Below, piece after piece: positions 4,682 through 23,266 of a DNA stretch of 64,000 bases. Within the stretch, counting starts at the first letter, position 1; each line of letters opens with the position of its first letter. The stretch spans positions 2,524,600 through 2,588,599 of the forward strand of contig NZ_KN046818.1 of the NCBI RefSeq assembly GCF_000742135.1, given 5' to 3'. Below the pieces are notes generated by a model that had not been told where the DNA came from, ran no database searches, and was given only the letters and a program-made list of their open reading frames with translations. Origin of the DNA: Klebsiella pneumoniae (GTDB lineage: Bacteria > Pseudomonadota > Gammaproteobacteria > Enterobacterales > Enterobacteriaceae). The position numbers and the translations under genes are program-made.

Positions 4682-4694
4682 GGCCCAGCGCCTC

Positions 4695-5444: not shown

Positions 5445-5459
5445 CTGTATGCCTCCATG

Positions 5460-5493: not shown

Positions 5494-5532
5494 CCTTTGT
5501 GCTACCCTTTTCTGCCGTCTAGCGCCTGAGGG

Positions 5533-5994: not shown

Positions 5995-6018
5995 TCATTT
6001 AATTCAGCAACGAAACCT

Positions 6019-6047
6019 AAAAAAGCAGCCCCGAAGGCTGCTTTTTT
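6019..6047. terminator. Bidirectional intrinsic terminator
   Basis: AAAAAAGCAGCC, a 5-base loop, then GGCTGCTTTTTT. The stem is GC-rich with an A run on one side and a T run on the other, so it can end both yncL (+) and the following minus-strand gene, whose TAA stop lies at its edge. Confidence 0.85.
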
Positions 6048-6297
6048 ACGCGCGAACAACAGAGTTGTTATCTTGCTGTCGGGCGGCGGGGGCTAACTGC
6101 GCGGCAGCTATTACCTTATTAAGACCGGGGTTATAGCTCGGCAGTACATTGACTTTTTCACTATCCCATTCGGCGGCGGCGCAGACGGCCTGCCCTACGC
6201 CCATCTTCTCACAGCTTTGGATTCGTTTCGCCGGGGCATTACCATAGCTCAGCGCCACAGCGCCGATAGCCAGCAGAATAAAAGCAAAAATTTTCAC
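6046..6297 (-). CDS. Hypothetical small secreted or membrane-anchored protein
   Basis: 83 residues beginning MKIFAFILLAIGAVALSYG, a signal peptide or anchor, followed by a polar tail with two cysteines (QSCEKMG, AVCAAAEW) and a Q/N-rich end. I do not recognise the family. The start codon is GTG with only a weak ribosome site, but the signal-like N terminus and the terminator placed exactly at the stop support a real gene. Confidence 0.6.
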   Translation of the reverse strand: MKIFAFILLAIGAVALSYGNAPAKRIQSCEKMGVGQAVCAAAEWDSEKVNVLPSYNPGLNKVIAAAQLAPAARQQDNNSVVRA

Positions 6298-6434
6298 AGC
6301 GACATCAACGTCAAAACCTAATATGCCCTAAATGATCGCATGAGCGGCGGCGGAAAGTCAAACCCGGGGCGCGCTACCTGGCGGCATCCGGTATTTGCCT
6401 CTGCCTCAGGGCTATAAAATATTCAGAACAAATA

Positions 6435-6632
6435 TCATGCGATAACCGTAAATATTAAAAGCTTATCTCTAGCCGTGAAATACTTTCTGTTCAGGGGAGT
6501 TAATTTCGCTAATAAGGAAAATATTTCGCCGTCGGCAAGGGGAAAAGGATCGCCGCCTTCGCCACAGGCGCAATATATCGCGCGGGCCGTCATCGTAAGA
6601 AGATAAATGGCGATGGCAAGCCGTTGTAACAT
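6435..6632 (-). CDS. Possible hypothetical small protein
   Basis: 65-residue open frame with a hydrophobic N terminus (LAIAIYLLTMTARAIY) and a GEGGDPFPLADGE segment. Purine-rich GGAGATGAAGAGG precedes the ATG, though the nearest GAGG is only two or three bases away. No family is recognised. It may be a chance frame in a low-constraint gap. Confidence 0.3.
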   Translation of the reverse strand: MLQRLAIAIYLLTMTARAIYCACGEGGDPFPLADGEIFSLLAKLTPLNRKYFTARDKLLIFTVIA

Positions 6633-6780
6633 AACCTCTTCATCTCCGTCATCACGGATAAGAGCCAGAAATAGCGCTAAATGACAACAAATATCATTTG
6701 CCTTCGCGTCAGATAATACTTACATTCATAACCATTGGTAATGCTTTAGCGCAGTTCGCGCTGTGAATTTCGAGGTGGAT

Positions 6781-6903
6781 ATGTCCGGAATCATCACGCT
6801 GGTCATCGCGCTAATCCTGCTGGTCGCGGCGGTGTATAATCTTATTTCCTACATTCGTGACCGGCGCAGCGCCAGCCTGCCCAGCAAAAAAACCAAGCGC
6901 TGA
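6781..6903 (+). CDS. Small membrane protein, 40 residues
   Basis: Open frame MSGIITLVIALILLVAAVYN followed by a basic tail (YIRDRRSASLPSKKTKR). This is one transmembrane helix with a strongly positive cytoplasmic end, a pattern common among Klebsiella small membrane proteins. The ribosome site GAGGTGG lies just upstream of the ATG. No specific function is known to me. It stands alone, 357 bp from the end of patD. Confidence 0.7.
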   Translation: MSGIITLVIALILLVAAVYNLISYIRDRRSASLPSKKTKR

Positions 6904-6974
6904 AAGTAGTTAAAGCGGTATTCTCGTTATCCCGGCGCGACTGGCCGGCTCATCTCTTCGCTCTTCTGCGAGCA

Positions 6975-7003
6975 CAAAAAAGCCCCTGCCGACAGACAGG
7001 GGC
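6975..7003 (-). terminator. Intrinsic terminator downstream of patD
   Basis: On the minus strand a CAGGGGC/GCCCCTG stem is followed by TTTTTT (the A run at 6976-6981 on the plus strand). It would end minus-strand transcripts about 260 bases past the patD stop. The gap between patD and this hairpin contains no gene I can support. Confidence 0.7.
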
Positions 7004-7260
7004 CGCAATTCGGTCGCGAACCGCGATGTTGCCGCCCCACCCGCCGGGCGCTGTGCGCCCAGGGTGACTGGCGGACCCCATCCGGCGCTTATCTCCGGCA
7101 CTCATGATGGCTTAGCTCTTGAAGGGGCATCAGAATAATCTCATATCCCCTGGGTTGAGTTTTGACAATTTTTGCCATTGTGACTATTAGCGGCCTAACA
7201 CACCCATCGCGCAATAGTCGCCTGGCGCTGAATGGTCAATCCTTTAGCTATGCTTAACCA

Positions 7261-8670
7261 TCACATGGCGGCCACGGTATAATCCTCAAGGCCATACATC
7301 GACATGTCCTTGCCGTAGCCTGACAGCTTCTGGCCACCGTGCGGCATTTCGCTGACCAGCATAAAGTGGGTATTGACCCAGGTGCAGCCGTACTGCAGCC
7401 TGGCGCTAAGACGATGGGCGCGACCGACATCTTTCGTCCATACCGAGGAGGCCAGACCATACTGAGAGTCATTCGCCCAGCTCAGGGCCTGCGCTTCATC
7501 GCTGAAAGGCGTCACGCTGACTACCGGACCAAACACTTCGCGCTGGACAATAGCGTCTTCCTGCCGGGCGCCGGCGAGCAGCGTCGGCTGGAAGTAATAG
7601 CCCGCGCCGTCAGCCCGACTGCCGCCGGTGACCACCTTAATGTGCGGCAGCGCCCTTGCGGCTTCCACCGCCGCGCTAACGCGCTCAAGATGGGCCAGCG
7701 AGCTCAGCGGACCCAGTTCGGTGGCAGCGTCCTCCGGCGCCCCCATTTTCAGGCTGGCCACCGCCGCCCCAAGTTTCTCCACCAGCTGGTCATAGATACC
7801 CTGCTGGGCGTAGATCCGGCAGGCGGCCGTGCAGTCCTGGCCGGCGTTGTAAAAACCGAAGGTCCGCACCCCATCCACCACCGCATCGATGTCCGCATCG
7901 TCAAAAACGATCACTGGCGCCTTACCGCCCAGCTCCATGTGGGTGCGTTTAATCGACGAGGCGGTATGGCCAATGATATGGGCTCCGGTGGCAATCGATC
8001 CGGTCAGGGAGACCATTCGCACTTTAACGTGGGCGGTCAAGGGGTCGCCCACCGTTTTACCGCGGCCAAACAGCACGTTGATAACCCCCTCCGGGAAGAT
8101 ATCTTTTGCCAGCTCCGCCAGCTTCAGCGCCGTCAGCGGGGTGATCTCCGAGGGTTTTATCACTACGCAGTTGCCCGCCGCCAGCGCCGGGGCCAGCTTC
8201 CAGGCCGCCATCATCAGCGGATAGTTCCACGGCGCGATGGAGGCCACCACGCCCACCGGATCGCGGCGGATCATTGAGGTATGCCCTTCGAGATACTCTC
8301 CGGCCGCCATCCCCGGCAGGCAGCGAGCGGCGCCGGCGAAGAAGCGGAAGACGTCGGCGATGGCCGGCATTTCATCATTAATCACGCAGTGCAGCGGCTT
8401 GCCGCAGTTCAGCGACTCCAGCTGCGCCAGGGTTTCAGCCTGCGCCGAGATGGCGTCCGCCAGCTTCAGGAGACATTCCGCACGCGTCTTCGGCGTCGTC
8501 TGACTCCAGGCATCGAATGCCCGGTCCGCCGCCTCAACGGCGGCATCGACCTGGGCCGCTGTCGCTTCGGCAATCTCCAGGATCACTTCGCCGGTTGCAG
8601 GGTTATATACCGGAACCTTCTCGCCTTCACCTGCCACTAACTTACCGTTTATCAATAGGTTGTGTTGCAT
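7261..8670 (-). CDS. patD: Gamma-aminobutyraldehyde dehydrogenase PatD
   Basis: Oxidises 4-aminobutanal to GABA with NAD in putrescine breakdown. Close to E. coli PatD (YdcW) along its length, except that the extreme C terminus is shorter here (ends DYTVAAM). Motifs are [28 protein letters not shown] with the base Glu, and the catalytic Cys in [13 protein letters not shown]. The frame opens at 8688, but ATG 8670 has AGGA at the right distance and begins the E. coli-like [12 protein letters not shown]. It is the last gene of the ydcS-T-U-V-patD operon, which links polyamine uptake with degradation. Confidence 0.95.
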
Positions 8671-8692
8671 AGCATTATCCTGTTTCATGGTT

Positions 8693-9499
8693 TTATTTCC
8701 CGTTTCCGGCGTCGTTATCGCCGTCGCGGGTGAGCCACCAGGCCCCTAAGATTGGTATCATCGTTACCAGCATCACCAACAGCGCGACAACGTTGGTGAC
8801 GGGCACATCTCGCGGCCGCCCCAGCTGATTCAGCAACCACAGCGGCAAGGTGCGTTCATGCCCCGCGGTAAAAGTGGTAACGATAATTTCATCAAACGAC
8901 AGAGCGAATGCCAGCATTCCCCCCGCCAGCAGCGCCGACCCCAGATTGGGCAGCACTACGTAACGAAAGGTCTGCCAACCGGTAGCGCCTAAATCCATCG
9001 AGGCTTCCACCATACTCCACGAAGTCCGGCGGAAGCGGGCGATGACGTTGTTAAACACCACCACCACGCAGAAGGTCGCGTGCCCCACCACGATCGTCAG
9101 CAGGCCAGGCTCAAGGCCGACCGCTTTGAACGCCGTCAGGAGTGCCAGGCCGGTAATGATCCCCGGCAGGGCGATAGGCAGCAGCAGCAGTAGCGACACC
9201 GCATTTTTGCCAAAAAAGGCGCTGCGCCACAGGGCTCCTGCAGCCAGCGTGCCAAGCACTAAGGCAATGGCGGTCGACAGGGCCGCGATCTTAAGTGACA
9301 GTGTCACTGCCTGCAGAATGTCGCTGCGCCCGGCCGCCTCGCTGAACCAGCGCAGCGTCAGCCCCTGCGGCGGAAAGCTAAAGGCTGCATCTTCCGTATT
9401 AAAAGCATAGATGGCGATAATCAGCAGCGGAAAGTGGAGGAATATCACCCCGCCCCAGGTCGCCAGTCGCAGATACCAGGGCGCGCGTTCAGAGTGCAT
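8693..9499 (-). CDS. ydcV: ABC transporter permease YdcV
   Basis: 268-residue inner-membrane permease, PotC-type, nearly identical in layout to E. coli YdcV. It has six hydrophobic segments. The EAA loop that docks the ATPase is [19 protein letters not shown] near residue 168. It overlaps ydcU by 11 bp and leaves about 22 bp to patD, consistent with one transcript. With YdcS, YdcT and YdcU it makes an importer predicted to carry polyamine-like substrates. Confidence 0.93.
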
Positions 9500-10418
9500 C
9501 GAAGGCTCCCAGACGTTTCACGAACGCCAGATAGAGGGCAATCAAGACGATAGGCACCAGGGTAAACGCCGCCGCCATCGGCATATTGCCGATCGCCCCC
9601 TGCTGCGAGTAAACCATATTGCCGATAAAGTATCCCGGCGGGCCCACCAGCTGCGGCACGATAAAGTCGCCTAGCGTCAGCGAAAAGGTGAAGATCGACC
9701 CAGCGGCGATGCCGGGAATGGCCAGCGGCAGCACCACGTAGCGAAAGGTCTGCCGCGGGGCCGCGCCGAGATCGGCCGAGGCCTGTAGCAACGATCCCGG
9801 AATACGCTCCAGCGCCGCCTGCACCGGCAGGATCATAAACGGCAGCCAGATGTAGACGAACACCAGAAAGCGTCCAAGGCCGGAGGTGGACAAGGTATTG
9901 CCGCCGACCGCCGGGACGCTCAACAGCGCGTTCAGCGCCCCCTCCAGTCCAAGATGACCGAGGAACCACTGCGCCACGCCATCTTTCGCCAGCAGCAGCA
10001 CCCACGCATAGGCTTTGACGATATAGCTGGCCCACATTGGCAGCATGACCGCGATATAAAAGAAGGCCTTCATTTTGCCGCTGGTGTAGCGCGCCATATA
10101 CCAGGCCATCGGCAGCGCCAGCAGCGCGCTGGCCAGCGTGACGCACAGCGCCATCACCAGGGTCCGCACAATAATGTCGTAGTTGGCAGGGTTGAACAGC
10201 GCCCGCAGGTTAGCCAGCGTGAAGTCGCTGGTCACCGACATGGTGAAGTCGTCAAAGGTATAAATGCTCTGCCACAGCAGGGTCAGCAGCGATCCCAGAT
10301 AGACGATGCCAAACCACATCAGCGGCCCGAGCAGCAGTAAAAACAGGGCCAGCGCCGGTCGGCGCCAGAAGATCCCCGATATGCGCCCGGTCTGCGCAGG
10401 AATTATTGCCATGGTCAT
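9489..10418 (-). CDS. ydcU: ABC transporter permease YdcU
   Basis: 309-residue PotB-type permease, close to E. coli YdcU. After a cytoplasmic N terminus, hydrophobic segments run from about residue 22. The EAA docking loop is [21 protein letters not shown] second in-frame ATG two codons in (MAII) could also serve as the start. It sits one base after ydcT and overlaps ydcV, which shows tight operon coupling. Confidence 0.93.
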
Positions 10419-10419
10419 C

Positions 10420-11433
10420 TCAGCCTCCGCTTTCCAGCGGGGTCATCGCCGAGCGCGACCATGACGCCTGTACTATTTGCCCGGTTCGCGGAACGCTGGC
10501 CGCCGCCGCGCCATCGATGTTGGCCTGGCTGACCAGCAGTTTGTCGCCATCCGCGAGGCGGAGCTCGATCCGCGTCGCCGCCCCCTGATACTGCACCGCC
10601 TGCACCACACCCTGCACCTGCACCTCGCCGCCGCCCTGCAGGCGAACATGCTCCGGACGCAGCGACCAGCTGCCCGCCATCCCGCACAATCGTCGGGCCG
10701 CCTCGGCTGCAAAAACGTTGGCGGTGCCGACAAAACCGGCCACAAACGCGGTCCTGGGATGCAGATAGAGATCCTGCAGGGCATCCACCTGCTCAATGCG
10801 CCCGTTGTTAAACACCGCCACGCGATCCGACATCGACAGCGCTTCGCTCTGGTCGTGGGTCACGAAGATGAAGGTGATCCCCAGCGACTGCTGCAGCTTT
10901 TTCAACTCCACCTGCATCTGCTCGCGTAGTTTCAAATCCAGAGCGCCCAGCGGCTCATCGAGCAGCAGCACCCGCGGCTGGTTCACCAGCGCCCGGGCAA
11001 TCGCGACCCGCTGCCGCTGGCCGCCGGAGAGCTGGGAGGGCTTGCGATGATGAGCATAGCCAAGGGCCACCTTCTCCAGCGCCTCCTGGGCGCGGGCATG
11101 GCGCGCTTTCTTCGCCATGCCTTTGACCATCAGGCCGTACGCGACGTTGTCAAGGATCGACATGTGGGGAAATAGCGCGTAGTCCTGGAACACGGTATTC
11201 ACATCCCGCTGCCAGGGCGGCAGTTCGCTGGCCGGCTGACCAAAGATATGGATGGTTCCGCCGGAGAGCTGCTCAAAACCGGCAATCAGCCGCAGGCAGG
11301 TGGTTTTACCCGAGCCGGACGGACCCAGCATCGAGAAAAATTCTCCATCGCGTATGCCAATGCTAACCCCATCCACCGCCCGCACATCGCCATACAGGCG
11401 CGATACATTCTGGAACTCGACCGCGTACGTCAT
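10420..11433 (-). CDS. ydcT: ABC transporter ATP-binding protein YdcT
   Basis: 337-residue ATPase of the PotA type. Walker A is GPSGSGKTT (about residues 39-47), the signature is LSGGQRQRVAIARAL, Walker B is RVLLLDEPLGALD, and the H-loop His is in IFVTHDQSEA. The C-terminal third is a TOBE-type regulatory domain containing WSLRPEHV. It powers the YdcUV permease with YdcS. It starts 16 bp after the ydcS stop. Confidence 0.94.
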   Translation of the reverse strand: MTYAVEFQNVSRLYGDVRAVDGVSIGIRDGEFFSMLGPSGSGKTTCLRLIAGFEQLSGGTIHIFGQPASELPPWQRDVNTVFQDYALFPHMSILDNVAYGLMVKGMAKKARHARAQEALEKVALGYAHHRKPSQLSGGQRQRVAIARALVNQPRVLLLDEPLGALDLKLREQMQVELKKLQQSLGITFIFVTHDQSEALSMSDRVAVFNNGRIEQVDALQDLYLHPRTAFVAGFVGTANVFAAEAARRLCGMAGSWSLRPEHVRLQGGGEVQVQGVVQAVQYQGAATRIELRLADGDKLLVSQANIDGAAAASVPRTGQIVQASWSRSAMTPLESGG

Positions 11434-11449
11434 TGTTTGCCTCCGATCC

Positions 11450-12595
11450 TTAGCGGCCGCCCATTATCGCAATATAGTCCTGAGTCCAGCGGCTATAGGG
11501 CACGTATTTCCCGCCTTCCGCAACCGGCGTTTTCCAGAAGTGAATGCGGTTAAACTGCTCATAGCCGTTGGTCTCACAGCCTTTATCACCGAGCAGCGCG
11601 CTGGCTTTACAGCCCTCAGGCACCACCGGCAGCGAACCGAACCAGGCCGCCACATCGCCCTGCACCTTCGGCGTGAGCGACCAGTTCATCCATTTATAGG
11701 CGCAGACCGGGTGCTTCGCCTCGCTGTGCAGCATGGTGGTATCCGCCCAGCCGGTTACCCCCTCCTTCGGGAACACGGTGGCGACCGGCTGGCCTTCCGC
11801 CTTCAGGCCGTTGGCTTGATAGGGCCACGAACTGGAGGCGGCTACCCCTTCGTTTTTGAAGTCGTTCATCTGTACGGTGGCGTCATGCCAGTAGCGATGG
11901 ATCAGCGGTTGCTGGTCGCGCAGGACTTTCAGCACCGCGTTGTACTGGGTTTCGGTCAGTTGATAGGGGTCTTCGATCCCCAGCTGCGGCTGGGTGGCTT
12001 TGACAAACAGCGCGGCGTCGGCGATATAGATCGGGCCATCATAGGCCTGCACCCGCCCCTGGTTGGTTTTACCATCCGGTAGATCCTGCTTGACGAACAC
12101 CACGCGCCAGCTGTCCGGCGGCGTCGGGAATACGCGGGTGTTGTACATCAGCAGGTTCGGCCCCCACTGATACGGCGTGCCATAGACTTTACCGCCGACG
12201 TTAAACCACGCCCCCTTCGCAATACGCGGATCAAGGGAGCCCCAGCCGGCAATCAGCGCCGTGTTGATCGGCTGCACGCGTTTGCCCATGATCAGGCGCA
12301 GCGAAGCATCACCCGAGGCGGTGACCAGATCGTAGCCGCCTTTGGCCATCAGACTGACCATCTCGTCAGAGGTGGCAGCGGTTTTGACATTAACCTGGCA
12401 ACCGGTGTCCTTTTCGAACTGACTCACCCAGTCGTACTGTTTGTCGGTCTGCCCGCGTTCGATATATCCCGGCCAGGCAATAATATCGAGCCGCCCTTCC
12501 GGTTTATCCAGCGAGGTGAGCGGCTCTGCCGCCTGAACGGTCAAACAAGCCATACCCAGCACATAAAGGCTGCAACGGGCAATTTTTTTGCTCAT
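11450..12595 (-). CDS. ydcS: Periplasmic binding protein YdcS
   Basis: 381 residues, same length as E. coli YdcS, with a signal peptide (residues 1-22, ending VQAAE). PotD-like features include LDIIAWPGYIERG and YGTPYQWGPNLLMYN. In E. coli the protein is also reported to have poly-3-hydroxybutyrate-related activity and a role in DNA uptake; that is literature and cannot be seen here. It is first in the operon, with 304 bp of non-coding sequence upstream. Confidence 0.95.
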   Translation of the reverse strand: MSKKIARCSLYVLGMACLTVQAAEPLTSLDKPEGRLDIIAWPGYIERGQTDKQYDWVSQFEKDTGCQVNVKTAATSDEMVSLMAKGGYDLVTASGDASLRLIMGKRVQPINTALIAGWGSLDPRIAKGAWFNVGGKVYGTPYQWGPNLLMYNTRVFPTPPDSWRVVFVKQDLPDGKTNQGRVQAYDGPIYIADAALFVKATQPQLGIEDPYQLTETQYNAVLKVLRDQQPLIHRYWHDATVQMNDFKNEGVAASSSWPYQANGLKAEGQPVATVFPKEGVTGWADTTMLHSEAKHPVCAYKWMNWSLTPKVQGDVAAWFGSLPVVPEGCKASALLGDKGCETNGYEQFNRIHFWKTPVAEGGKYVPYSRWTQDYIAIMGGR

Positions 12596-12899
12596 CAGGT
12601 GTTACTCCTGTCACAAAGGAATTAGCGGCAGCCGTGCCGTAAAAATATCTCCTGAAATAAGGGTAGTCAGCGGATTAACGCCCCCAGGGGAATTTATTCA
12701 GGTTGTGACCCGGGACGCATTACGTAAAAATCGCCAACACAAGCAGGACTTTATGGATTATAGACAACGAGTTAGGGAATGAGGAGGGGTATGCATATTT
12801 CCTATGGTGAGCGCCGGTAAAATAATGACCGGCCTCGATAAAAATCCTCTTTCGCTTATTTTCGCAGAATGTTTATGATGAGAAAAATAAACGACAGGG
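12596..12899. promoter_or_regulatory. Intergenic region carrying the ydcS operon promoter
   Basis: 304 bp between the end of ydcR and ydcS, both on the minus strand. No gene is supported here; a 64-codon plus-strand frame lacks family resemblance. The operon promoter must lie here, and in E. coli ydcS is RpoS-dependent, but I cannot place a -10 with confidence. Confidence 0.5.
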
Positions 12900-14312
12900 T
12901 CAGGCAAGCTGTTCGCGAATAAGCTCCCCCAGGCGCTTCACCCCCTGCTCTTCGCGTTCCCCCCAGCCCCAGGCGGTATTAAAACGGAAAAACGAGGTCC
13001 AGCTGTCGGAGGTGGAGAACATTTTCCCTGGGGCAATGCTGATGTGCGACGCCAGCGCCCGGGCGCTAAGTGCGCTAGCGTCGGCCCCTTCCGGTAGTTC
13101 GATCCACAGAAAGTAGCCGCTGTCGCTGTGGTGGACGATGACCTCCGGCGGCAGATGGCGCAGCAGCGCCTGCCAGGCCTGCTGTTTACGCTCCGCCAGC
13201 TGACGACGTAGACGGCGCAGGTGGGCGTCATAGCGCTTGGTGGACAGGTAATCCACCAGGGCTAACTGCATCGGCGAACTGGTGGAAAGCGTACTCATCA
13301 GCTGGAGCTGCTGGATCCGCCGCGCCTGTTTGCCGGCCGCCACCCAGCCGATACGAAAGCCGGGTACCAGACATTTTGAGAACGAGCTGCAGTGCAGCGT
13401 CATCTCCTGGCGATCCCAGAACTTAGCCGGTAACGGCTTTTCGCGGCCAAAATAGAGCTCGCTGTAGACATCATCTTCGATCAACATCACGTTATAGCGC
13501 GCCAGCAGCGCCACCAGCGCCGCTTTTTTTTCAGCGCTGAGTGTGAAGCCGAGCGGATTCTGGCCGTTGGTCATCAGCCAGCAGGCCTTCACCGGATAGT
13601 TTTGCAGGGCCGCCTCCAGCGCCGTCAGATCAATGCCTTCCCTGACGTCAGTGGCCACCGACAATGCTTTCAAACGCAGCCTCTCCAGCGCCTGCAGGGC
13701 GCCGTAGAAGCAGGGGTTTTCCACCACCACCCAGTCTCCCGGCTCGGTCACCGCCTGCAGGCTGAGGTTAAGCGCCTCCAGCGCCCCGGCGGTGATGACG
13801 ATCTCGTCCGGCGAGACGTTCATCCCCTGCAGGGCATAGCGACGGGCAATGGCATGCCGAAGTTCTGCATTGCCCGGCGGCAGATTCTCAATGACGCTCA
13901 TGGCGGTGGCGGTTTTACTCACCTGCGCCAGCGAGCGGTTGAGCTGCTGCAGCGGGAAGAGACGCGGGTCCGGAAAGGCCGAGGCAAAGGGCAGCATCGA
14001 CGCCTGGCGGCTGGCCTGGAGCACCTCAAAGATATAGGTATTGATATCGACGGCTTCATCGCGAGTGACCTGGGCAGGCGGCGCCGGCTGGCGGAGCTTC
14101 ACCGGCTGGGGGGCAACATAATAACCCGACTGCGGACGGGCGACGATGCGCCCCTGGCTTTCCAGCAGCTGATAGGCATGGCTGACGGTCATAAAGCTCA
14201 TGCCGCTGCTGATCACCTGCTCGCGCAGCGACGGCAGCCGATCGCCAGGCAACCAGACGCCAAGGGCGATCTGCTCGGTCAGTTGCTGCGCTAACTGTTG
14301 ATACTTTTTCAT
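12900..14312 (-). CDS. ydcR: MocR-type transcriptional regulator YdcR
   Basis: 470 residues: an N-terminal GntR winged helix (about 1-70, MKKYQQLAQQLTEQI...PSLREQVISSGMSFMTVSHAYQ) fused to a fold-type-I aminotransferase-like domain. The PLP-binding Lys is in HCSSFSKCLVPGFRIGW. Closely matches E. coli YdcR. The frame opens at 14348, but ATG 14312 gives the E. coli N terminus. It probably senses an amine or PLP adduct and controls ydcSTUV-patD, though the target is inference. TAACTGTTATAT-like elements lie upstream at 14352-14392. Confidence 0.93.
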   Translation of the reverse strand: MKKYQQLAQQLTEQIALGVWLPGDRLPSLREQVISSGMSFMTVSHAYQLLESQGRIVARPQSGYYVAPQPVKLRQPAPPAQVTRDEAVDINTYIFEVLQASRQASMLPFASAFPDPRLFPLQQLNRSLAQVSKTATAMSVIENLPPGNAELRHAIARRYALQGMNVSPDEIVITAGALEALNLSLQAVTEPGDWVVVENPCFYGALQALERLRLKALSVATDVREGIDLTALEAALQNYPVKACWLMTNGQNPLGFTLSAEKKAALVALLARYNVMLIEDDVYSELYFGREKPLPAKFWDRQEMTLHCSSFSKCLVPGFRIGWVAAGKQARRIQQLQLMSTLSTSSPMQLALVDYLSTKRYDAHLRRLRRQLAERKQQAWQALLRHLPPEVIVHHSDSGYFLWIELPEGADASALSARALASHISIAPGKMFSTSDSWTSFFRFNTAWGWGEREEQGVKRLGELIREQLA

Positions 14313-14432
14313 TGCGGCCGTCCCCGTACGATAACGTCCCATTATCATATATCAGTTATAAAAAAATCATAGTTTCCTGTAACTGTTATATCTGCAGCGG
14401 CGGCCGCGTCGCCGTGATAGCACGGGATGGGT

Positions 14433-14531
14433 TTAAAATATCACCACCCAGAATAGCGAGATTAAAACAAACCAGAAGATAATCATTACGCCAAGCGTAA
14501 TGCACAGACTCTGTAATCCTTTTTCAGACAT
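14433..14531 (-). CDS. Small membrane protein, 32 residues
   Basis: Open frame MSEKGLQSLCITLGVMIIFW and onward to VVIF. It has a short polar N terminus and one long hydrophobic helix. AAGGGA sits about eight bases before the ATG, a good ribosome site. It lies between ydcR and the oxidase operon, on the ydcR strand. No family is recognised. CydX-like proteins are similar in size, but this one is on the opposite strand to the oxidase. Confidence 0.6.
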   Translation of the reverse strand: MSEKGLQSLCITLGVMIIFWFVLISLFWVVIF

Positions 14532-14999
14532 TGGCATTCCCTTTTATTTATTCCCGAGCTCATACAGTACAAATTAGCCGCGGAGCCGACAATTTATTAT
14601 TATTTAATTTACGATTAACCGGCTCAGCGTTTTTACTTATTCTCATACTAATGAGTGACAATAAATCATAGTAAAAATCCGTGGCGGATTTCGTAAGCCA
14701 AAATATGAGCTACGGCGGGTGGTAAGGATATATTATGCCGACCAGGTGACTACGCCATACCGGCGGCAGGGCCGCGTAGCCAGCCGTTAGCAATAATATG
14801 ACAGACAGCGGAATAGACGCCTAATCACCTTCCGCAGGGATTAATCAAGGTTGCGCAAGGATATTTTCTCGCCTTGGCAACAGCTGAAAAATCATAACAG
14901 CGGCCAACTGTTATGATAAAAAATGGCGTGACTGCCTCTGCCCCTCAGTCGTCACTCCACCTAAAATTGCGCTGAATCAATTTTGTTGTGGAGTCCTGC
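14532..14999. promoter_or_regulatory. Oxidase operon upstream region with inverted repeat
   Basis: 468 bp without a supported gene. It holds a perfect inverted repeat ATCATAACAG / CTGTTATGAT (14891-14900 and 14908-14917, 7-bp spacer), 83 bp before the subunit I start, which is a good operator candidate. AACTGTTAT within it (14906-14914) also occurs at 14381-14389 upstream of ydcR. GGAG at 14990-14993 is the ribosome site of the oxidase gene. Confidence 0.5.
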
Positions 15000-16472
15000 A
15001 TGTTCGGTCTTGATGCATTCCATCTGGCGCGAGTTCAATTCGCTTTTACGGTCTCATTTCATATTATCTTCCCCGCCATTACCATCGGACTGGCCAGCTA
15101 TCTGGCGGTGCTCGAAGGCTTATGGCTAAAAACAAAAAATCCCGTCTGGCGCTCGCTGTACCATTTCTGGTCGAAGATTTTCGCCGTCAACTTCGGTATG
15201 GGGGTCGTTTCCGGGCTGGTGATGGCCTACCAGTTCGGCACCAACTGGAGCGGTTTCTCACAGTTTGCAGGCAGCATAACCGGCCCTCTGCTGACCTATG
15301 AAGTCCTGACGGCATTTTTTCTGGAAGCGGGCTTCCTCGGGGTGATGCTTTTCGGCTGGAACCGCGTTGGGCCGGGGCTGCACTTTTTCGCCACCTGCAT
15401 GGTGGCGCTGGGTACTATCATCTCCACCTTCTGGATCCTCGCCTCTAACAGCTGGATGCAGACCCCGCAGGGGTTTGAGATCGTTGATGGCCAAGTCGTG
15501 CCCGTCGACTGGCTGGCGGTGATCTTTAATCCGTCGTTCCCCTACCGATTATTGCATATGACAGTAGCGGCGTTTCTCAGTAGCGCGCTGTTTGTCGGCG
15601 CCTCGGCGGCCTGGCATCTGCTGCGCGGCAATCAGTCGCCGGCGATCCGTAAGATGTTCTCGATGGCGCTATGGATGACGCTGCTGGTCGCCCCCGTCCA
15701 GGCGCTGATCGGCGATATGCATGGCCTGAATACCCTGCAGCACCAGCCGGCGAAAATCGCCGCCATTGAGGGGCACTGGGAAAATCCGCCGGGTGAGCCA
15801 ACGCCGTTGCTGCTGTTTGGCTGGCCCGATATGGACCAGGAGCGCACCCGCTACGGGCTTGAGATACCGGCCCTGGGCAGTCTGATCCTCACCCACAGTC
15901 TTGATAAACAGGTGCCGGCGTTGAAAGAGTTCGCTCCTGAGGAGCGCCCGAATTCTACTGTGGTGTTCTGGTCATTTCGCCTGATGGCCGGGCTGGGCAT
16001 GTTGATGCTGCTGCTGGGCGTGCTGGCCCTGTGGCTGCGTCGCGGCGACCGGCTATACCACTCGCGGCCGTTTCTGCGTTTTGCCCTGTGGATGGGGCCA
16101 TCCGGCCTGATCGCTATTCTCGCCGGCTGGGTGACCACCGAGGTGGGCCGCCAACCCTGGGTGGTGTATGGCGTTCAGCGCACCGCCGATGCCGTTTCCG
16201 CTCATGGCGATCTGCATATGTCGGTCAGTTTATTGACCTTTATCGTAGTGTACAGCGCCGTCTTCGGCGTCGGCTACAGCTATATGCTGCGCCTGATCCG
16301 CAAGGGGCCGCAGGAGATGCTCCCGGCGACAACCGGTACGCCCGCCCGCTGTCCGCCGCCACTGAAGGTTATCTGCAGAAGGAGTCCCGCTAATGGGTAT
16401 CGAATTATCGGTGATCTGGTTCGTGATTATCGTCTTTGCCACGCTGATGTACATCGTCATGGATGGCTTTGA
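15000..16472 (+). CDS. cioA: Cytochrome bd-type (CIO) quinol oxidase subunit I, C-terminal frameshift
   Basis: Membrane quinol oxidase subunit of the short-Q-loop cyanide-insensitive class. It starts MFGLDAFHLARVQFAFTVSFH with the haem-ligand His region, keeps the GWVTTEVGRQPW motif, and has only a short loop where E. coli CydA has a long Q-loop. ATG 15000 follows GGAG. Near the end the frame shifts: the plus-one reading gives ARPLSAATEGYLQKESR and a stop at 16391-16393 that overlaps the subunit II ATG, the normal arrangement. Here the frame instead reads into unrelated sequence to 16472. Restoring a third GCCC at 16340-16347 would give 465 residues. The catalytic core is intact. Confidence 0.85.
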   Translation: MFGLDAFHLARVQFAFTVSFHIIFPAITIGLASYLAVLEGLWLKTKNPVWRSLYHFWSKIFAVNFGMGVVSGLVMAYQFGTNWSGFSQFAGSITGPLLTYEVLTAFFLEAGFLGVMLFGWNRVGPGLHFFATCMVALGTIISTFWILASNSWMQTPQGFEIVDGQVVPVDWLAVIFNPSFPYRLLHMTVAAFLSSALFVGASAAWHLLRGNQSPAIRKMFSMALWMTLLVAPVQALIGDMHGLNTLQHQPAKIAAIEGHWENPPGEPTPLLLFGWPDMDQERTRYGLEIPALGSLILTHSLDKQVPALKEFAPEERPNSTVVFWSFRLMAGLGMLMLLLGVLALWLRRGDRLYHSRPFLRFALWMGPSGLIAILAGWVTTEVGRQPWVVYGVQRTADAVSAHGDLHMSVSLLTFIVVYSAVFGVGYSYMLRLIRKGPQEMLPATTGTPARCPPPLKVICRRSPANGYRIIGDLVRDYRLCHADVHRHGWL

Positions 16473-17408
16473 TCTGGGCATCGGCCTGCTGTTCAGCACG
16501 GTGCGGGGCGGCGGGGATCGCGACGTAATGGTCAACAGCGTCGCGCCGGTATGGTATGGGATGGCAATGAAACCTGGCTGGTGCTCGGCGGCGCCGGCCT
16601 GTTTGGCGCCTTTCCCCTCGCCTACGCGGTGATCATCGACGCCCTGTCGATCCCCCTGACCCTGATGCTGATCGGCCTGATTTTTCGCGGCGTCGCCTTT
16701 GAGTTTCGCTTCCAGGCTACGCCGTCGCACCGGCCATTCTGGGATCGCGCCTTTTTTGGCGGCTCCCTGCTGGCAACCTTCAGCCAGGGCGTGGTGGTCG
16801 GGTCGGTGATCAACGGTTTCACCGTCAGCGGTCGCGCCTTCAGCGGCGGCATGTTTGACTGGCTGACCCCGTTCAGCCTGTTCTGCGGACTCGGACTATG
16901 CGTGGCCTATGCGCTGCTCGGCGCCACCTGGCTGGTGATGAAAAGTGAAGGCGCGCTGCAGCAGAGAATGCGCAGCGCATCGCGGCAGTTGCTGAGTGCC
17001 CTGCTGGCGGTGTTTGCCGTCATCAGCCTGTGGACTCCGCTGGCGCACCCGGCGATTGCTGCCCGCTGGTTCAGCCTGCCGAATCTCTATTTCCTGCTGC
17101 CGGTGCCGCTGCTGGTGATCCTCGTTAGCGGCTGGCTGTGGCGCACGCTGCATCAGCGCGACCGCCATGTTTCGCCCTTCACGCTGACGCTGGGCCTGGT
17201 CTTTCTCGGCTTCAGCGGACTGGGGATCAGCATCTGGCCGCATATTATCCCGCCGGCCATCACGCTGTGGCAGGCTGCCGCTCCCCCGCAAAGCCAGGGC
17301 TTTATGCTGGTGGGCGCCCTGCTGATTATTCCGGTCATTCTTGGCTACACCTGCTGGAGCTATTACGTGTTCCGCGGCAAAGTTCAGCCTGGGGAGGGAT
17401 ATCACTGA
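16393..17408 (+). pseudogene. cioB: Cytochrome bd-type (CIO) oxidase subunit II, frameshifted by a 5-bp duplication
   Basis: The first 55 codons encode a normal subunit II N terminus (MGIELSVIWFVIIVFATLMY, then MDGFDLGIG). At 16549-16558 GTATG is present twice in tandem, which breaks the invariant PVWDGNETWLV motif: the original frame ends at 16632, while the correct continuation (WDGNETWLVLGGAGLFGAFPL) runs in another frame to 17408. Removing one GTATG gives 336 residues, the usual family length. As it stands the oxidase lacks a complete subunit II, so the complex is probably non-functional unless this is an assembly error. Confidence 0.85.
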
Positions 17409-17533
17409 TGCGTACTGCCTGGCCTAAACGTCTGCTGTGGCTGATCGCGCTCTGGGGAGGCAGCGTACTGACGCTGGCCGCCATAAGCCTGCTGTTTCGC
17501 CTGCTGATGACCGCCGCAGGGCTAAAAGTCTGA
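17408..17533 (+). CDS. DUF2474 small subunit of the bd-type oxidase (CydX-like)
   Basis: 41 residues with one transmembrane helix (LLWLIALWGGSVLTLAAISLLF). DUF2474 proteins accompany CIO-type bd oxidases as the third, small subunit. The ATG overlaps the subunit II stop (TGATG), so it depends on translation of a frameshifted gene upstream. A hairpin follows at 17544-17567. Confidence 0.75.
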   Translation: MRTAWPKRLLWLIALWGGSVLTLAAISLLFRLLMTAAGLKV

Positions 17534-17543
17534 GTGGGATGCA

Positions 17544-17567
17544 GAGAGGTCCGAAAAGGGACTTCTC
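17544..17567 (+). terminator. Hairpin after the oxidase operon
   Basis: GAGAGGTCC pairs with GGACTTCTC (one G-U pair) across a 6-base loop. The following bases are only moderately T-rich, so it is a weak terminator candidate. Confidence 0.4.
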
Positions 17568-17628
17568 CATCTTATCTTCACTTTTGCCTGATGAAATACG
17601 GCGATACATCTGAAGAAAGGATATTGCT

Positions 17629-17934
17629 ATGAAGAAGTTAGCTTTACTCTCCGCCGTAATGACGCTGGGAATGTCGTCATGGGCTTTTGCTGCCGACAAC
17701 CCGCCGCCGCCGCCGGAAAAAGGCGCGCAGCATCAGGGTAAACCGCCGGTGAAAAACGGCCAACACGAAGGTAAGCAAGCGCAATACAACAGCAAACAGC
17801 CACAACGAGACGGCAAACAGCCGCAGCACGACGGTAAACAGCCGCAGCACGACGGTAAACAGCCGCAGCACAACGGCAAGCAGCCGCCAAAAGGGAGCGA
17901 GCACAGCGGGAAACCGCTGCCGCCGAAAGCGTAA
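17629..17934 (+). CDS. Secreted repetitive Gln/Lys/His-rich protein
   Basis: 101 residues. A clear signal peptide (MKKLALLSAVMTLGMSSWAFA, cleavage before AD) precedes a hydrophilic, probably disordered mature chain made largely of heptads of the type GKQPQHD, with a proline run PPPPPEKG at the front. AAGGA precedes the ATG and a strong terminator follows. I do not recognise a characterised family. The His and Lys content would allow metal or polyanion binding, which is speculation. It is absent from the equivalent E. coli locus. Confidence 0.75.
   Translation: MKKLALLSAVMTLGMSSWAFAADNPPPPPEKGAQHQGKPPVKNGQHEGKQAQYNSKQPQRDGKQPQHDGKQPQHDGKQPQHNGKQPPKGSEHSGKPLPPKA
17812..17874 (+). repeat. Three tandem 21-bp repeats in the secreted protein gene
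   Basis: Units begin at 17812, 17833 and 17854, each 21 bp (seven codons, GKQPQHD or GKQPQHN). They differ at one or two bases, and degenerate heptads flank them on both sides. Copy number changes would stay in frame. Confidence 0.9.
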
Positions 17935-17940
17935 CACTCT

Positions 17941-17968
17941 GGCCTGGCTTCCGCGTCAGGCCTTTTTT
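17941..17968 (+). terminator. Intrinsic terminator of the repetitive protein gene
   Basis: GGCCTG and CAGGCC form a stem across a 10-base loop, followed directly by TTTTTT, beginning six bases after the stop codon. Confidence 0.85.
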
Positions 17969-18082
17969 CATCCTTCGTCAGCCATCGTTGACAAACTCTT
18001 GCCGTTCTTTGAGATGCCCGAAAAAAAGCCTGCATTGCGCCTGACATAGTATGTCCACGCCATTGTTCCGTCGAGAAAAGGT

Positions 18083-18313
18083 ATGTTAAAGAGAAGCATA
18101 AGCGCCCTGCTGTTGCTGTGCGCATTATTTTCCGGGCATCTGTTGGCCCATCGTCAGGGACACGAGTACTTTCCGGTGCAAAGTCTCGAACAGCAGCTGC
18201 TGCACGAAGCGGATAGCGATGAGCTTCGCAGCCAGCACGAGGAGGCCGCCGCAGACCTGCGCGAACATCACCGCTGGCAGGACGACCGTAAACCGCGGGC
18301 ATCCTGCCAATAG
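18083..18313 (+). CDS. yncJ: YncJ, small secreted protein
   Basis: 76 residues, same length as E. coli YncJ. A signal peptide (LLLLCALFSGHLLA) is followed by a mature part containing LLHEADSDELRSQHEEAAADLREHHRW, matching the E. coli protein closely. Probably periplasmic; function unknown. It is convergent with rlhA (12 bp apart), as in E. coli. Confidence 0.85.
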   Translation: MLKRSISALLLLCALFSGHLLAHRQGHEYFPVQSLEQQLLHEADSDELRSQHEEAAADLREHHRWQDDRKPRASCQ

Positions 18314-18325
18314 CATCGACTCGAA

Positions 18326-20287
18326 TCAGGCCCCTTTGCGCTTCGGCAGCGTCTTCATCAGATCGTCCGGGCTGACGGAGGCCACAATGCTGCCCGGGTG
18401 CGGCATTTTGAGGATATGGTTTTTGATCTTGCCGACCACGTGCATTTCGCACGGACGGCAGTCAAACTTCAGGGTCAGGACCTCATCGCCATGGATCAGC
18501 TGCATCGGCGTGGCTTTCCAGCTCTTGATGGAGCCTTTCGCCTGCTTCGGGCAGAGGTTGAAGGCGAACCGCAAACAATGCTTAGTGATCATCACCGGCA
18601 CATCGCCCTTCTCTTCGTGCGCTTCATAGGCGGCGTCGATCAGCTGTACGCCATAGCGCTGGTAGAACGCCCGCGCCTTGTGGTTATAGACGTTGGCGAG
18701 GAAGGAGAGATGGGTCTCAGGGTAGACCGGCGGCGGTACGGAGACCGGCTTGCGGGTGCCGCGCTGCCAGGCGTTGAGGCGCGCTTCATCCAGCATCTCC
18801 GCAGTTTCCCGACGCAGCTGGTTGAGCAGGCTGTTGGGCACAAACAGCGGCGGCAGATTAACCTGCACCTCGCGCGCATAGTAAATGGTTTGCCCCAGTT
18901 TTGTGACACCGTCACGCAGGTTGGTCAGCGCTTTCTCCGCCTGGTTAGCTTCGGCGAACTCCCCGTCAAGGGTGTGGGTCACGCTGACGCCATCTTCACA
19001 GGTCATGGTGAGAACCAGCTGCTCCTGCCAGCCGCTCAACGTCACATCTACCGCGATGCGGCGTTCGCTGGAGGTCTTTAGCAGCGCCTGTTGCCAGTTA
19101 TGATCGAGGTTGCGGTTGAGCGGCTGATGGGGGCGCACTTTATGCAGATCCGCTGGCATCTCGTTCGGCCATACCCGATAACGGTTTTCGCCGGTTTTTT
19201 CCACGGTATTAGCACGGAAGCCCACCACTTCGCGCTTAATCATCACGTTGAGACCATCGCCGTTGGTTAACGGTTCACTGACTTCAACGTCGAGATGGTC
19301 TTTGCCTACCTTCAGAACTTCACCCACCGGCAGGCCGATAAATTTCGGCGAATCAAAGGCGCCGATATCGCCTTTGCGGGCATTAACAAAGTAGTCAGTG
19401 CTGCCGCGGTGGAAGGTTTTATCCGTGGACGGGATAAAGAAATGCTCGGTGCGTCCAGCCGAGGCGCGCGCCAGGTCGCCGCGATCTTCAATAATGGCAT
19501 CCAGCATTTGACGGTAGTGCGCAGTGATGTTTTTCACATAACTCATGTCTTTGTAACGGCCTTCAATTTTGAAGGAGCGTACGCCAGCGTCGATCAGCGC
19601 CGCCAGGTTGGCGGTCTGATCGTTATCCTTCATCGACAGGAGATGTTTCTCATAGGCCACCACCCGCCCCTGATCGTCCTTCAGGGTATACGGCAAGCGG
19701 CAAGCCTGCGAGCAGTCGCCGCGGTTGGCGCTGCGTCCGGTCTGGGCGTGCGAAATGTAACACTGCCCGGAATAGGCCACGCACAGCGCGCCATGGATAA
19801 AGAATTCGATAGTGGCGTCAGTGTGGTCGTAAATGGCTTTGATTTGACTGAGGTTCAGTTCGCGCGCCAGCACGATCTGACTGAAGCCGGCGTCGGAGAG
19901 AAACTTCGCTTTTTCCACACTGCGAATATCGCACTGGGTGCTGGCGTGCAGCTCAATCGGCGGCAGATCCAGCTCCATGATCCCCATATCCTGGACGATC
20001 AGCGCATCGACGCCTGCGTCGTAGAGATCGGTAATCAGCCGCTGCGCCGGCTCCAGTTCATCGTCATGCAGAATGGTGTTCAGCGTCACAAATACCTTTG
20101 CGCCAAAGCGATGAGCGAAAGGCACCAGCCCGGCGATATCGCTCAGACTGTTGCTGGCGTTGTGGCGGGCGCCAAAGCCAGGTCCACCGATGTAAACGGC
20201 ATCGGCGCCGTGAAGGATCGCTTCGCGAGCGATACCGGCGTCGCGGGCAGGACTAAGAAGTTCAAGACGATGATTGTGCAGGCGCAT
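18326..20287 (-). CDS. rlhA: 23S rRNA C2501 hydroxylation factor RlhA (U32 peptidase family)
   Basis: 653 residues, matching E. coli RlhA (YdcP), which is needed for 5-hydroxycytidine at position 2501 of 23S rRNA. The U32 family region includes HGADAVYIGGPGFGAR at the N terminus and the cysteine-bearing GQCYISHAQTGRSANRGDCSQACRLPY around residues 170-195, which with Cys further on is expected to bind an Fe-S cluster. C-terminal Cys residues occur in FNLCPKQ and KFDCRPCEMH. No frameshift is seen. It is downstream of sutR on the same strand with a 211-bp gap. Confidence 0.95.
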   Translation of the reverse strand: MRLHNHRLELLSPARDAGIAREAILHGADAVYIGGPGFGARHNASNSLSDIAGLVPFAHRFGAKVFVTLNTILHDDELEPAQRLITDLYDAGVDALIVQDMGIMELDLPPIELHASTQCDIRSVEKAKFLSDAGFSQIVLARELNLSQIKAIYDHTDATIEFFIHGALCVAYSGQCYISHAQTGRSANRGDCSQACRLPYTLKDDQGRVVAYEKHLLSMKDNDQTANLAALIDAGVRSFKIEGRYKDMSYVKNITAHYRQMLDAIIEDRGDLARASAGRTEHFFIPSTDKTFHRGSTDYFVNARKGDIGAFDSPKFIGLPVGEVLKVGKDHLDVEVSEPLTNGDGLNVMIKREVVGFRANTVEKTGENRYRVWPNEMPADLHKVRPHQPLNRNLDHNWQQALLKTSSERRIAVDVTLSGWQEQLVLTMTCEDGVSVTHTLDGEFAEANQAEKALTNLRDGVTKLGQTIYYAREVQVNLPPLFVPNSLLNQLRRETAEMLDEARLNAWQRGTRKPVSVPPPVYPETHLSFLANVYNHKARAFYQRYGVQLIDAAYEAHEEKGDVPVMITKHCLRFAFNLCPKQAKGSIKSWKATPMQLIHGDEVLTLKFDCRPCEMHVVGKIKNHILKMPHPGSIVASVSPDDLMKTLPKRKGA

Positions 20288-20498
20288 ACGCGTGTTGTTA
20301 TCCAGTATAAGGGGGTCGAAATGGCGGCTATTGTAGTCAGAACCGGGCGCAGACGAAAACCTTTTCCGCCGTCGCTGGACGACGAATTTTCACTTTTCAA
20401 CAAAGTATTGACGGAAAAGATATTTCCCTCAAATCACGGCGAAGAGTACTGTCATCACGTATTCCGGATTTTCCTCGTCACGTTGTGAGTGGTTATCA

Positions 20499-21068
20499 TC
20501 AGTCATCTTGTCTGGCCGCGGGTTCGCTCGCGGTTTTTTCTTTTGGATAATGGATAAGAGAATGGAAATGGGCCGCCTGGGCGCCGCGGTTACGATACGC
20601 ATGCGTCGCGTCGCCGGCGAAACGCCTACCCTCACCCGCTTGCAGCGAGTGCCACTCCCCTTGTAAGCACAAATCCAGCGTACCACTTATCACTACCACA
20701 TGCTCAATCACCCCTTTCTCATGCGGCGTTGATTCGCTCAGCGCGCCGGGGGCAAGGGTTATCGAAAAATGGTCAAAGCGCAGCTCGGGATCCCACGGGA
20801 ATACTGGCGTCACCACCATCGCCTGCTGCTGCGGATCAAACGCGGAGGGCGCGGCGCTGGCGTCCGGGACGATGAACGCCGAAAACGGTACGTTCAGCCC
20901 GGTGGCAATCTTCCACAGCGTCGCCACCGTTGGACTTGATTCATTCCGCTCAATCTGCCCGAGCATGGCTTTCGACACCCCGGTCTCTTCCGCCAGTCGC
21001 GACAGGCTCCAGCCTCGCTGCTGGCGCAGGGTTTTAAGCGTTGCCGCCAGATGTTGCGCAATATTCAT
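20499..21068 (-). CDS. sutR: Transcriptional regulator SutR (HTH plus cupin)
   Basis: 189 residues. An XRE-type helix-turn-helix occupies about residues 8-65 (RLAEETGVSKAMLGQIERNESSPTVATLWKI), followed by a cupin domain (about 95-175, with EKGVIEHVVVISGTLDL). Orthologous in order and sequence to E. coli SutR (YdcN), linked to control of sulfur-utilisation genes. It is divergent from benE across 185 bp that contain two palindromes suited to such a regulator. Its last codons overlap a plus-strand terminator-like hairpin (20517-20540). Confidence 0.92.
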   Translation of the reverse strand: MNIAQHLAATLKTLRQQRGWSLSRLAEETGVSKAMLGQIERNESSPTVATLWKIATGLNVPFSAFIVPDASAAPSAFDPQQQAMVVTPVFPWDPELRFDHFSITLAPGALSESTPHEKGVIEHVVVISGTLDLCLQGEWHSLQAGEGRRFAGDATHAYRNRGAQAAHFHSLIHYPKEKTASEPAARQDD

Positions 21069-21191
21069 CCTTCCTCCCGTTTTTACTGCGCAAAGTATAC
21101 CGCCATTTGTCTGATTTTTTCAGGACGTTTAACGGCATCGTACGCCACTGGCGGCGAGTTTTTCTCCCAGGGTAGCTGCGCGAACCACCGC

Positions 21192-21243
21192 TTGTGCGTT
21201 ATAACGCACAATGATACAGTGAATGGATGTTATAACGCACATG
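21192..21243. promoter_or_regulatory. Paired palindromes between sutR and benE (candidate SutR operators)
   Basis: TTGTGCGTTATAACGCACAA at 21192-21211 is a perfect 20-bp palindrome. A second copy, GTTATAACGCACA (21229-21241), keeps the core and right arm. The centres are 31 bp apart, about three helical turns, and the second is 21 bp from the benE ATG. This is typical of a dimeric repressor binding cooperatively. Assignment to SutR is inference from position. Confidence 0.65.
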
Positions 21244-21253
21244 AGAATCATCG

Positions 21254-22420
21254 ATGCGCTCGTTTAGTCTTCCGCTTCCCACTCTGTTCGCTGGCTTCGT
21301 CGCCGTGTTGGTGGGGTACGCCAGCTCCGCCGCCATCATCTGGCAGGCCGCCGCCGCGGCCGGCGCTACCCCCGGGCAGATCGCCGGCTGGATGACGGCT
21401 CTTGGCCTCGCCATGGGCATCAGTACTCTCGCGCTGAGCGCCTGGCGGAAAGTTCCTGTGCTCACCGCCTGGTCAACGCCGGGCGCTGCGCTGTTAGTTA
21501 GCGGCCTGCAGGGGGTGACCCTCGCCGAGGCCGTGGGGATCTTTATTTTCGCCAACGCGCTGATCGTTATCTGCGGCGCCACCGGCCTGTTTGCCCGGCT
21601 GATGAAGATCATTCCCCATTCGCTGGCCGCCGCGATGCTGGCTGGGATCCTGCTACGGTTTGGTTTGCAGGCCTTCGCCGGCTTACAGGATCATCTGCCG
21701 CTGTGCGGCGGGATGCTCGCCGCCTGGCTGCTGTGTAAAGCGCTGTGGCCCCGCTTCGCCGTGGTGGCCGCGCTGGTGATTGGAGCGCTGATTGCGGCGG
21801 CGTCCGGGGACGTGGCTAGCGCCGCCGTGCCGCTGGCATTTGTGACGCCGGAATGGGTCGCCCCGCAGTTTACTCCGGCGCTTTTGCTCAGCGTCGGTCT
21901 GCCGTTCTTCCTCGTCACCATGGCCTCGCAGAACGCTCCAGGGTTCGCCACCCTGCAGGCATCAGGCTATACCGTACCGGTCTCCGCACTGATCGTCGTT
22001 TGCGGGGGGTTGGCACTACTGCTGGCGCCGTTTGGGGTTTATTCCATCTGCATCGCGGCGATCACCGCCGCCATATGCCAGAGCCCGGAGGCGCACCCGG
22101 ATCCGAACCAGCGCTGGCTGGCGGCCATAGCCGCGGGCGGTTTTTATCTGCTGGCCGGTCTGTTCGGCGGGTCAATCACCGCCCTGATGTCGGCCCTGCC
22201 GCCGGCGTGGGTCCAGATGCTGGCGGGTCTGGCGCTGCTCGGCACCATCGGCGGGAGTCTGTTTCAGGCAGTGCATCAGGCCAGTGAGCGCGATGCGGCA
22301 GTGCTAACCTTCCTGGTCACCGCCAGCGGGGTGACGCTGGCGGGAATTGGCTCCGCCTTCTGGGGCGTGGTGCTCGGCGGGGTGAGTTACGGCGTGCTAT
22401 CCGCGCTGCGCCGCCCGTAG
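21254..22420 (+). CDS. benE: BenE-family benzoate/H+ symporter homologue (YdcO)
   Basis: 388 residues with about eleven or twelve hydrophobic segments, collinear with E. coli YdcO/BenE. Typical motifs are GYASSAAIIWQAA at the N terminus, AWSTPGAALL, HSLAAAMLAGILLRFG and MASQNAPGFATLQASGY. The family is annotated as benzoate transport, but the true substrate in enterics is not settled. It is controlled from the sutR-benE intergenic region. Its last 24 bp overlap the 3' end of the convergent AraC gene. Confidence 0.9.
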   Translation: MRSFSLPLPTLFAGFVAVLVGYASSAAIIWQAAAAAGATPGQIAGWMTALGLAMGISTLALSAWRKVPVLTAWSTPGAALLVSGLQGVTLAEAVGIFIFANALIVICGATGLFARLMKIIPHSLAAAMLAGILLRFGLQAFAGLQDHLPLCGGMLAAWLLCKALWPRFAVVAALVIGALIAAASGDVASAAVPLAFVTPEWVAPQFTPALLLSVGLPFFLVTMASQNAPGFATLQASGYTVPVSALIVVCGGLALLLAPFGVYSICIAAITAAICQSPEAHPDPNQRWLAAIAAGGFYLLAGLFGGSITALMSALPPAWVQMLAGLALLGTIGGSLFQAVHQASERDAAVLTFLVTASGVTLAGIGSAFWGVVLGGVSYGVLSALRRP

Positions 22421-23266
22421 CTGGGAGGGCGTCAGGCCGGTGGCGGCTTTGACCCGATGGCTGAAATGGCTGGGGGAGCTAAAACCACAGGCCAGCGCTA
22501 TCTCGGTTAACGGCAGCGCGCTATGGCAGATCAGGTTTTGCGCCTTCGCCATTCGCTGCTGCATGACGTACTGATGCGGAGCCATATTTAGCGACTGACG
22601 AAACATACGAGCAAAATGAAACTCACTCAGACCCGCCTGCTGCGCCAGGTCGGCCAGGGTCAAGGGCTGATCGAGATGAGCATCGATCCAGGCCAGTACG
22701 TGACGCTTTACGCCTGGCGCCAGCCCGCCGGTGACCGTCGGCAAACGCCACTGCACGGTGGAATAGGGCTGGATCAGATGGGTAAGCAGTAAGCTGCTGG
22801 CGGCGCTGAGGGTCAGCTGGTTCGCCGGCTGCCGCCAGTCGTTAGCCAGCAAAAACTGACGATACACTGCGGTGATTTTATCATCGCTGGCGAAGGTCTT
22901 TTCCTGCAGGGTGAAGTTCGCCGGGCTGCGGTCCCACACCTCCTCGCCGACGCGACGCAGGTGCGCATCGGTACAGTAAAGATGCACAAACGACAGATCG
23001 CCGCGGATATCCCATACGCTTTCATCGCCTTTCGGCATCAGACAAAAACGATCCGGGCCGCCGCCATTTTTCCAGCCGTGCGGCGTCTTTTGATAGCTTT
23101 CGTAGCCATCAGCCACGTACAGACTTAAAGTATGATGGTCGCTGCGCACCGTCACGGTATCGCAATTGTTATACCAGGCGGCCAGTTGAATACCGGAATT
23201 CAGCTCCACGGTTCCCTTCAGCACCGCGTTCTGTCGCCGTAATGTTTCAAATGTCCCGTAACCCAT
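22397..23266 (-). CDS. AraC-family transcriptional regulator
   Basis: About 289 residues. A C-terminal double helix-turn-helix (about the last 100 residues: LADLAQQAGLSEFHFARMFRQSLNMAPHQYV, then LTEIALACGFSSPSHFSHRVKAATGLTPSQLR) follows an N-terminal sensing domain of unknown ligand. I prefer ATG 23266; a GTG at 23275 is also in frame, and neither has a strong ribosome site. It is divergent from the EamA exporter and probably controls it (inference). It is not present at this place in E. coli. Confidence 0.85.
   Translation of the reverse strand: MGYGTFETLRRQNAVLKGTVELNSGIQLAAWYNNCDTVTVRSDHHTLSLYVADGYESYQKTPHGWKNGGGPDRFCLMPKGDESVWDIRGDLSFVHLYCTDAHLRRVGEEVWDRSPANFTLQEKTFASDDKITAVYRQFLLANDWRQPANQLTLSAASSLLLTHLIQPYSTVQWRLPTVTGGLAPGVKRHVLAWIDAHLDQPLTLADLAQQAGLSEFHFARMFRQSLNMAPHQYVMQQRMAKAQNLICHSALPLTEIALACGFSSPSHFSHRVKAATGLTPSQLRAAQRG

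Follow-up and report, generated by a model that had tools for sequence, protein, structure and literature searches.

The operon described here lies in a window of 64 kb of Klebsiella pneumoniae DNA (the whole stretch that was analysed, G000:C1:2524600-2588599, from a genome of 5.55 Mb in 5 contigs). It comprises the genes for both subunits of a bd-type oxidase and for a small CydX-like protein, and a regulator gene is divergently oriented to it (Table 1). PdxR was the best NCBIfam model for the regulator, but its score was below the cut-off (255.3 versus 320 bits). Beyond the operon, at 17629-17934, a small protein contains a repeat of 7 residues (21 bases) that varies in copy number but stays in frame, with one unit more in the K. 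pneumoniae record CP125156.1 and one unit fewer in K. variicola CP064321.1.

Table 1. Features of the bd oxidase operon and its divergent regulator, in window positions
Feature	Position	Strand	Basis
MocR-like regulator, open, divergent from the operon	12900..14348	-	GntR and aminotransferase class I/II domains
cydA/cioA-like, bd oxidase subunit I	15000..16472	+	PF01654 and comparison with the CP125156.1 product
Site 1, window 4 bases shorter than compared relatives	16340..16347	+	alignments
cydB, first piece, 79 aa	16393..16632	+	PF02322 positions 1-51
Site 2, five-base tandem duplication, not in compared relatives	16549..16558 (16548-16558 in alignment)	+	alignments
cydB, remainder, 285 aa	16551..17408	+	PF02322 positions 50-302; first ATG inside the duplication
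DUF2474 small subunit (CydX-like), open, 41 aa	17408..17533	+	PF10617, 60.5 bits

Class of the oxidase

Subunit I matched PF01654 over the entire profile (570.5 bits, positions 1-418 of 418). Structure-chain alignments revealed that the long Q-loop extension seen in the solved bd-I and bd-II structures is missing from it. Against 7ose_A, the first aligned stretch ended at chain residue 317 (query 318) and the second started at chain residue 381 (query 317), while the corresponding residues for 6rko_A were 313 (query 314) and 373 (query 309), leaving about 60 chain residues of both structures without counterpart in subunit I. According to PMC5322542, the CIO is marked by the missing Q-loop extension, and subtype C is characterised by DUF2474. 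A preliminary description of this DNA had called the operon CIO-type, which is borne out by the PF01654 match, the short Q-loop and the DUF2474 gene after cydB. Judged by its sequence, the operon is that of a CIO-type (subtype C) bd quinol oxidase by descent, and a broken member of this class rather than a working one. With CIO subtype C operons it has in common a subunit I that is free of the long Q-loop extension, a subunit II and the appended DUF2474 protein, but in the present genome, unlike in those operons, the frame is broken in the tail of cydA and in cydB. Subunit II is not complete, its PF02322 match being split across two ORFs.

Two frame breaks in adjacent genes

At site 1 (letters GCCCGCCC at 16340-16347), close to the 3' end of cydA, all relatives examined have 4 bases more than the window, and the deletion sits between short similar stretches. 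The loss of one of three identical GCCC units had been proposed as its history, but the relatives do not have three identical units: their extra unit is not identical to the neighbouring GCCC units, and there is no third GCCC copy at this place. The cydA ORF of the window encodes 490 aa from the ATG at 15000, versus 465 aa in CP125156.1, and extends 80 bases beyond the start of cydB. The last 15 residues of CydA are replaced by 40 others. Since the Pfam domain is complete and the tail alone is altered, the predicted effect of the cydA lesion is mild.

At site 2, GTATG occurs twice after cydB codon 54 and makes the window 5 bases longer than all compared relatives; the extra five bases are a tandem copy. 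The cydB ORF stops after 79 codons, with the first 54 residues native and the following 25 altered, and the first hydrophobic segment of CydB (assigned by eye) falls within the lost N-terminus. For the ATG of the remainder ORF at 16551, no Shine-Dalgarno-like pairing was found (best value +0.6 kcal/mol), compared to -8.3 kcal/mol for cydB, -5.9 kcal/mol for cydA, -11.7 kcal/mol for the DUF2474 gene and a median of -2.2 kcal/mol at positions sampled along the window. The cydB lesion should thus be null, with a 79-residue product and a 285-residue remainder without ribosome-binding site, and we infer that the operon yields no assembled oxidase. Both frame breaks and their coordinates had been given in the preliminary description and hold after checking of letters and ORFs, with which the alignments agree. 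The two are indeed separate lesions, neither of them a homopolymer slip.

Comparison with relatives

The window was 99.3% identical to CP125156.1 across 53.3 kb and across 11.1 kb, and 99.4% identical to NZ_CP079635.1 across 37.6 kb, while the operon alone was 98.9% identical to each of these two K. pneumoniae records. Neither indel was present in any of the 19 congeneric orthologues, in the two conspecific records or in K. variicola CP064321.1, and on these grounds we reject a species-wide or genus-wide lesion. By this comparison both indels are derived in the present genome and the relatives, which include two conspecific records only, are intact. Decay, put forward earlier as the leading reading, is a fair one. 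Derived frame-changing indels in one lineage, found in none of the compared relatives, are also the features of a strain-specific frameshift pseudogene; unlike the typical case, there are two lesions here, in adjacent genes and 208 bases apart.

Among the CydB-family places in 20 genomes of the genus, 50 of 52 were unbroken and free of stops, the remaining two being the two parts of the present split gene; the lesions therefore exceed chance. The repeats do not. The GCCC and GTATG pairs are present as described, but the 64 kb of the window hold 172 such tandem pairs with a 4-base unit and 56 with a 5-base unit, so that two-copy short repeats at both sites are ordinary.

Compared to CP125156.1, cydA contains eight codons with silent changes and one with a replacement, and cydB six and one. 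Versus NZ_CP079635.1 these numbers are nine and one for cydA, and one and five for cydB, where three of the five replacements are derived in NZ_CP079635.1, one is common to CP125156.1 and one is found in the window only. Altogether six coding changes were scored as window-only, namely four silent ones (three of them common to the genus genome G013) and two replacements. Beyond the two lesions, no nonsense change was seen in the operon. The substitutions, as far as coding sequence can tell, show no long decay and are too few to speak for either relaxed or kept selection. If real, the lesions are probably recent.

Several observations concern the records themselves. CP125156.1 and NZ_CP079635.1 (L103-L105) are filed as plasmids of 5.37 Mb and 1.04 Mb, yet carry this chromosomal region, and they look like mislabelled chromosome sequence. 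CP125156.1 shows many single-base or short homopolymer losses compared to the window. At 24314, in a gene annotated in CP125156.1 as a DMT family transporter, the window has one base more than NZ_CP079635.1; this change belongs to NZ_CP079635.1, since two other members of the genus match the window. At 7272, towards the 3' end of patD (so named in CP125156.1), the window has lost a single base versus both conspecific records and two other members of the genus.

Other bd oxidases and wider relatives of the operon

The genome encodes three PF01654 subunit I proteins, all without internal stops, and two whole PF02322 subunit II proteins besides the split one. One of the other loci is a second CIO operon (G000:C1:1842091-1844492) with the same two-subunit arrangement and 74% DNA identity, which differs from the operon in the window in having uninterrupted frames for its two subunits (471 and 336 aa). 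Four bd-type operons, termed two bd-I and two bd-II, are described for K. aerogenes in PMC11576283, according to which membrane proteomes, in the conditions of that study, showed one bd-I operon alone. This case lends support to redundancy of bd oxidases solely by analogy.

Operon relatives were also found on E. coli and Salmonella plasmids, with 78.2-78.3% DNA identity among the matches listed. The E. coli plasmid NZ_CP061102.1 (IncFIB/IncFIC, 78.3% DNA identity) carries a similar regulator, subunit I, subunit II and DUF2474 gene in equal order. Its operon differs from that of the window in being annotated as whole, on a plasmid typed as conjugative and near IS3, IS26 and Tn3-like elements. 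Within 4476-23047 of this plasmid (L107), the operon relative has its own PLP-dependent regulator-like gene. Of the complete E. coli genomes, 26 of 5,426 contained a match, all on plasmids and 25 of them in the 60-80% identity band, which is uninformative on the lesions. No match was obtained in the phages collection and none among viral contigs.

A scan covered 114 loci, which are not independent: besides orthologues they include paralogues and regions in which the genes were not expected. In 102 of these loci cydB was whole, in 4 it was partial and in 8 it was not found; for cydA the corresponding numbers were 100, 4 and 10. Apart from the window itself, which is among the partial cases, stops and frame changes affected both subunit genes in Kluyvera genomosp. 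3 (CP022114.1, L102), a frame-changing gap was present in cydA of K. variicola (CP064321.1, L106) and one stop in cydB of V. cincinnatiensis (L058), and Falsochrobactrum (L082) showed a partial cydB with a stop while its cydA was not found. In L075 and L098, cydA counted as partial because the alignments were merely short. These breaks elsewhere in the family differ in place from those of the window, and some may be sequencing errors.

Indels around the locus

We surveyed 264 kb around the locus against NZ_CP079635.1, of which 144.6 kb aligned. Indels were polarised with G013 throughout and with a second genus genome, G019, for the window and its edges (72 kb), so that most of the flank rests on G013 alone. 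Of 28 indels, 13 were derived in the present genome and 6 in NZ_CP079635.1, while 4 were mixed and 5 unpolarised. Seven of the 13 were single-base changes, two falling in long homopolymer runs; the others were three tandem gains (5, 6 and 7 bases), two 3-base changes and a 4-base loss. Some caution is due in reading the survey. By eye, five indels near -34 kb (three among the 13 derived) resemble short repeated motifs. Part of the ORFs used are spurious: the change about 62 kb before the window belongs to a gene on the opposite strand, near its 3' end, and that at -2794 (mixed polarity) is probably ahead of the true start of its gene. Outside the operon, there were two derived frame changes in genes, both near gene ends (patD at 7272 and the gene about 62 kb before the window), which are too few to argue from. 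With five events placed at random in 144.6 kb, the chance that two fall as close together as the 208 bases observed in the operon was 0.028, and with three events it was 0.008; these two estimates bracket the doubt over the motif-like indels near -34 kb.

Discussion

We consider it probable, with appreciable room for doubt, that a redundant CIO-type bd quinol oxidase operon has recently and in this strain specifically lost its function. Two small indels would have arisen at short direct repeats, their derived state being evident from the comparison with relatives. The first would change only the tail of CydA, whereas the second would cut CydB after residue 54 and leave no assembled oxidase. 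This loss may be tolerable because the genome keeps two other open bd loci, the second CIO operon and a third one, which could stand in for it. Once null, the operon would be free to collect another lesion.

The principal alternative is that the operon is intact in the strain and that both indels were made by assembly or consensus error in a single poorly resolved stretch of about 210 bases. We regard this as a serious though rather unlikely explanation. It was formerly argued that two lesions speak against assembly error, but this is weak, since at a distance of 208 bases one such stretch could yield both. The spacing fits decay of one operon and one badly resolved stretch equally. The confinement of both indels to the present genome among those compared, the lack of any nonsense change elsewhere in the operon and the share of single-base changes among the derived indels (7 of 13, some of which could be errors) all suit an error. 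On the other hand, there is no excess of mismatches between the sites, where the only two differences are silent and both derived in CP125156.1. The derived indels over 144.6 kb are also mixed in kind, with 2 of 13 in long homopolymer runs, which speaks to the general quality of the assembly rather than to this stretch. A generally poor assembly is not indicated, because this mixture is unlike the homopolymer losses of CP125156.1, although single errors are possible.

Reversible slippage that turns the oxidase on and off, as raised in the preliminary description, appears very improbable. In its favour, each site consists of a short unit in two copies, and the loss of a 5-base tandem duplication is possible in principle. 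But two-copy units are frequent in the window, and when the GCCC and GTATG copy numbers were compared, neither site varied in length in the 19 congeneric orthologues or the three named records. In addition, the relatives' unit at site 1 differs from its neighbours, and both sites would need to be in frame simultaneously. Multi-copy identical simple repeats in or before the gene, the feature of contingency loci, were not found, each site having two copies, and no title on a bd oxidase that is switched on and off appeared among the literature matches listed. We therefore reject phase variation on repeat number, repeat frequency and the constancy of both sites in the compared relatives.

Even less credible is a working CydB in two pieces, in which the remainder starts in frame at the ATG of the duplication, keeps PF02322 positions 50-302 and pairs with a first piece that keeps positions 1-51, since the pairing test gave this ATG no Shine-Dalgarno-like support (+0.6 kcal/mol), the arrangement is absent from the 19 congeneric orthologues and the first piece carries 25 altered residues beyond residue 54. 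It is accordingly highly doubtful that a conditional or altered CIO oxidase has been kept here, be it through low-rate reversal of the 5-base duplication or through a two-piece CydB from the new start.

The consequence is foremost one of caution: the broken CIO operon has no parallel in the two conspecific records, and the number of bd oxidases that the species uses should therefore not be judged from this genome alone. If the lesions are real, the operon would provide a small natural example of a genome with three bd oxidase loci losing one of them.
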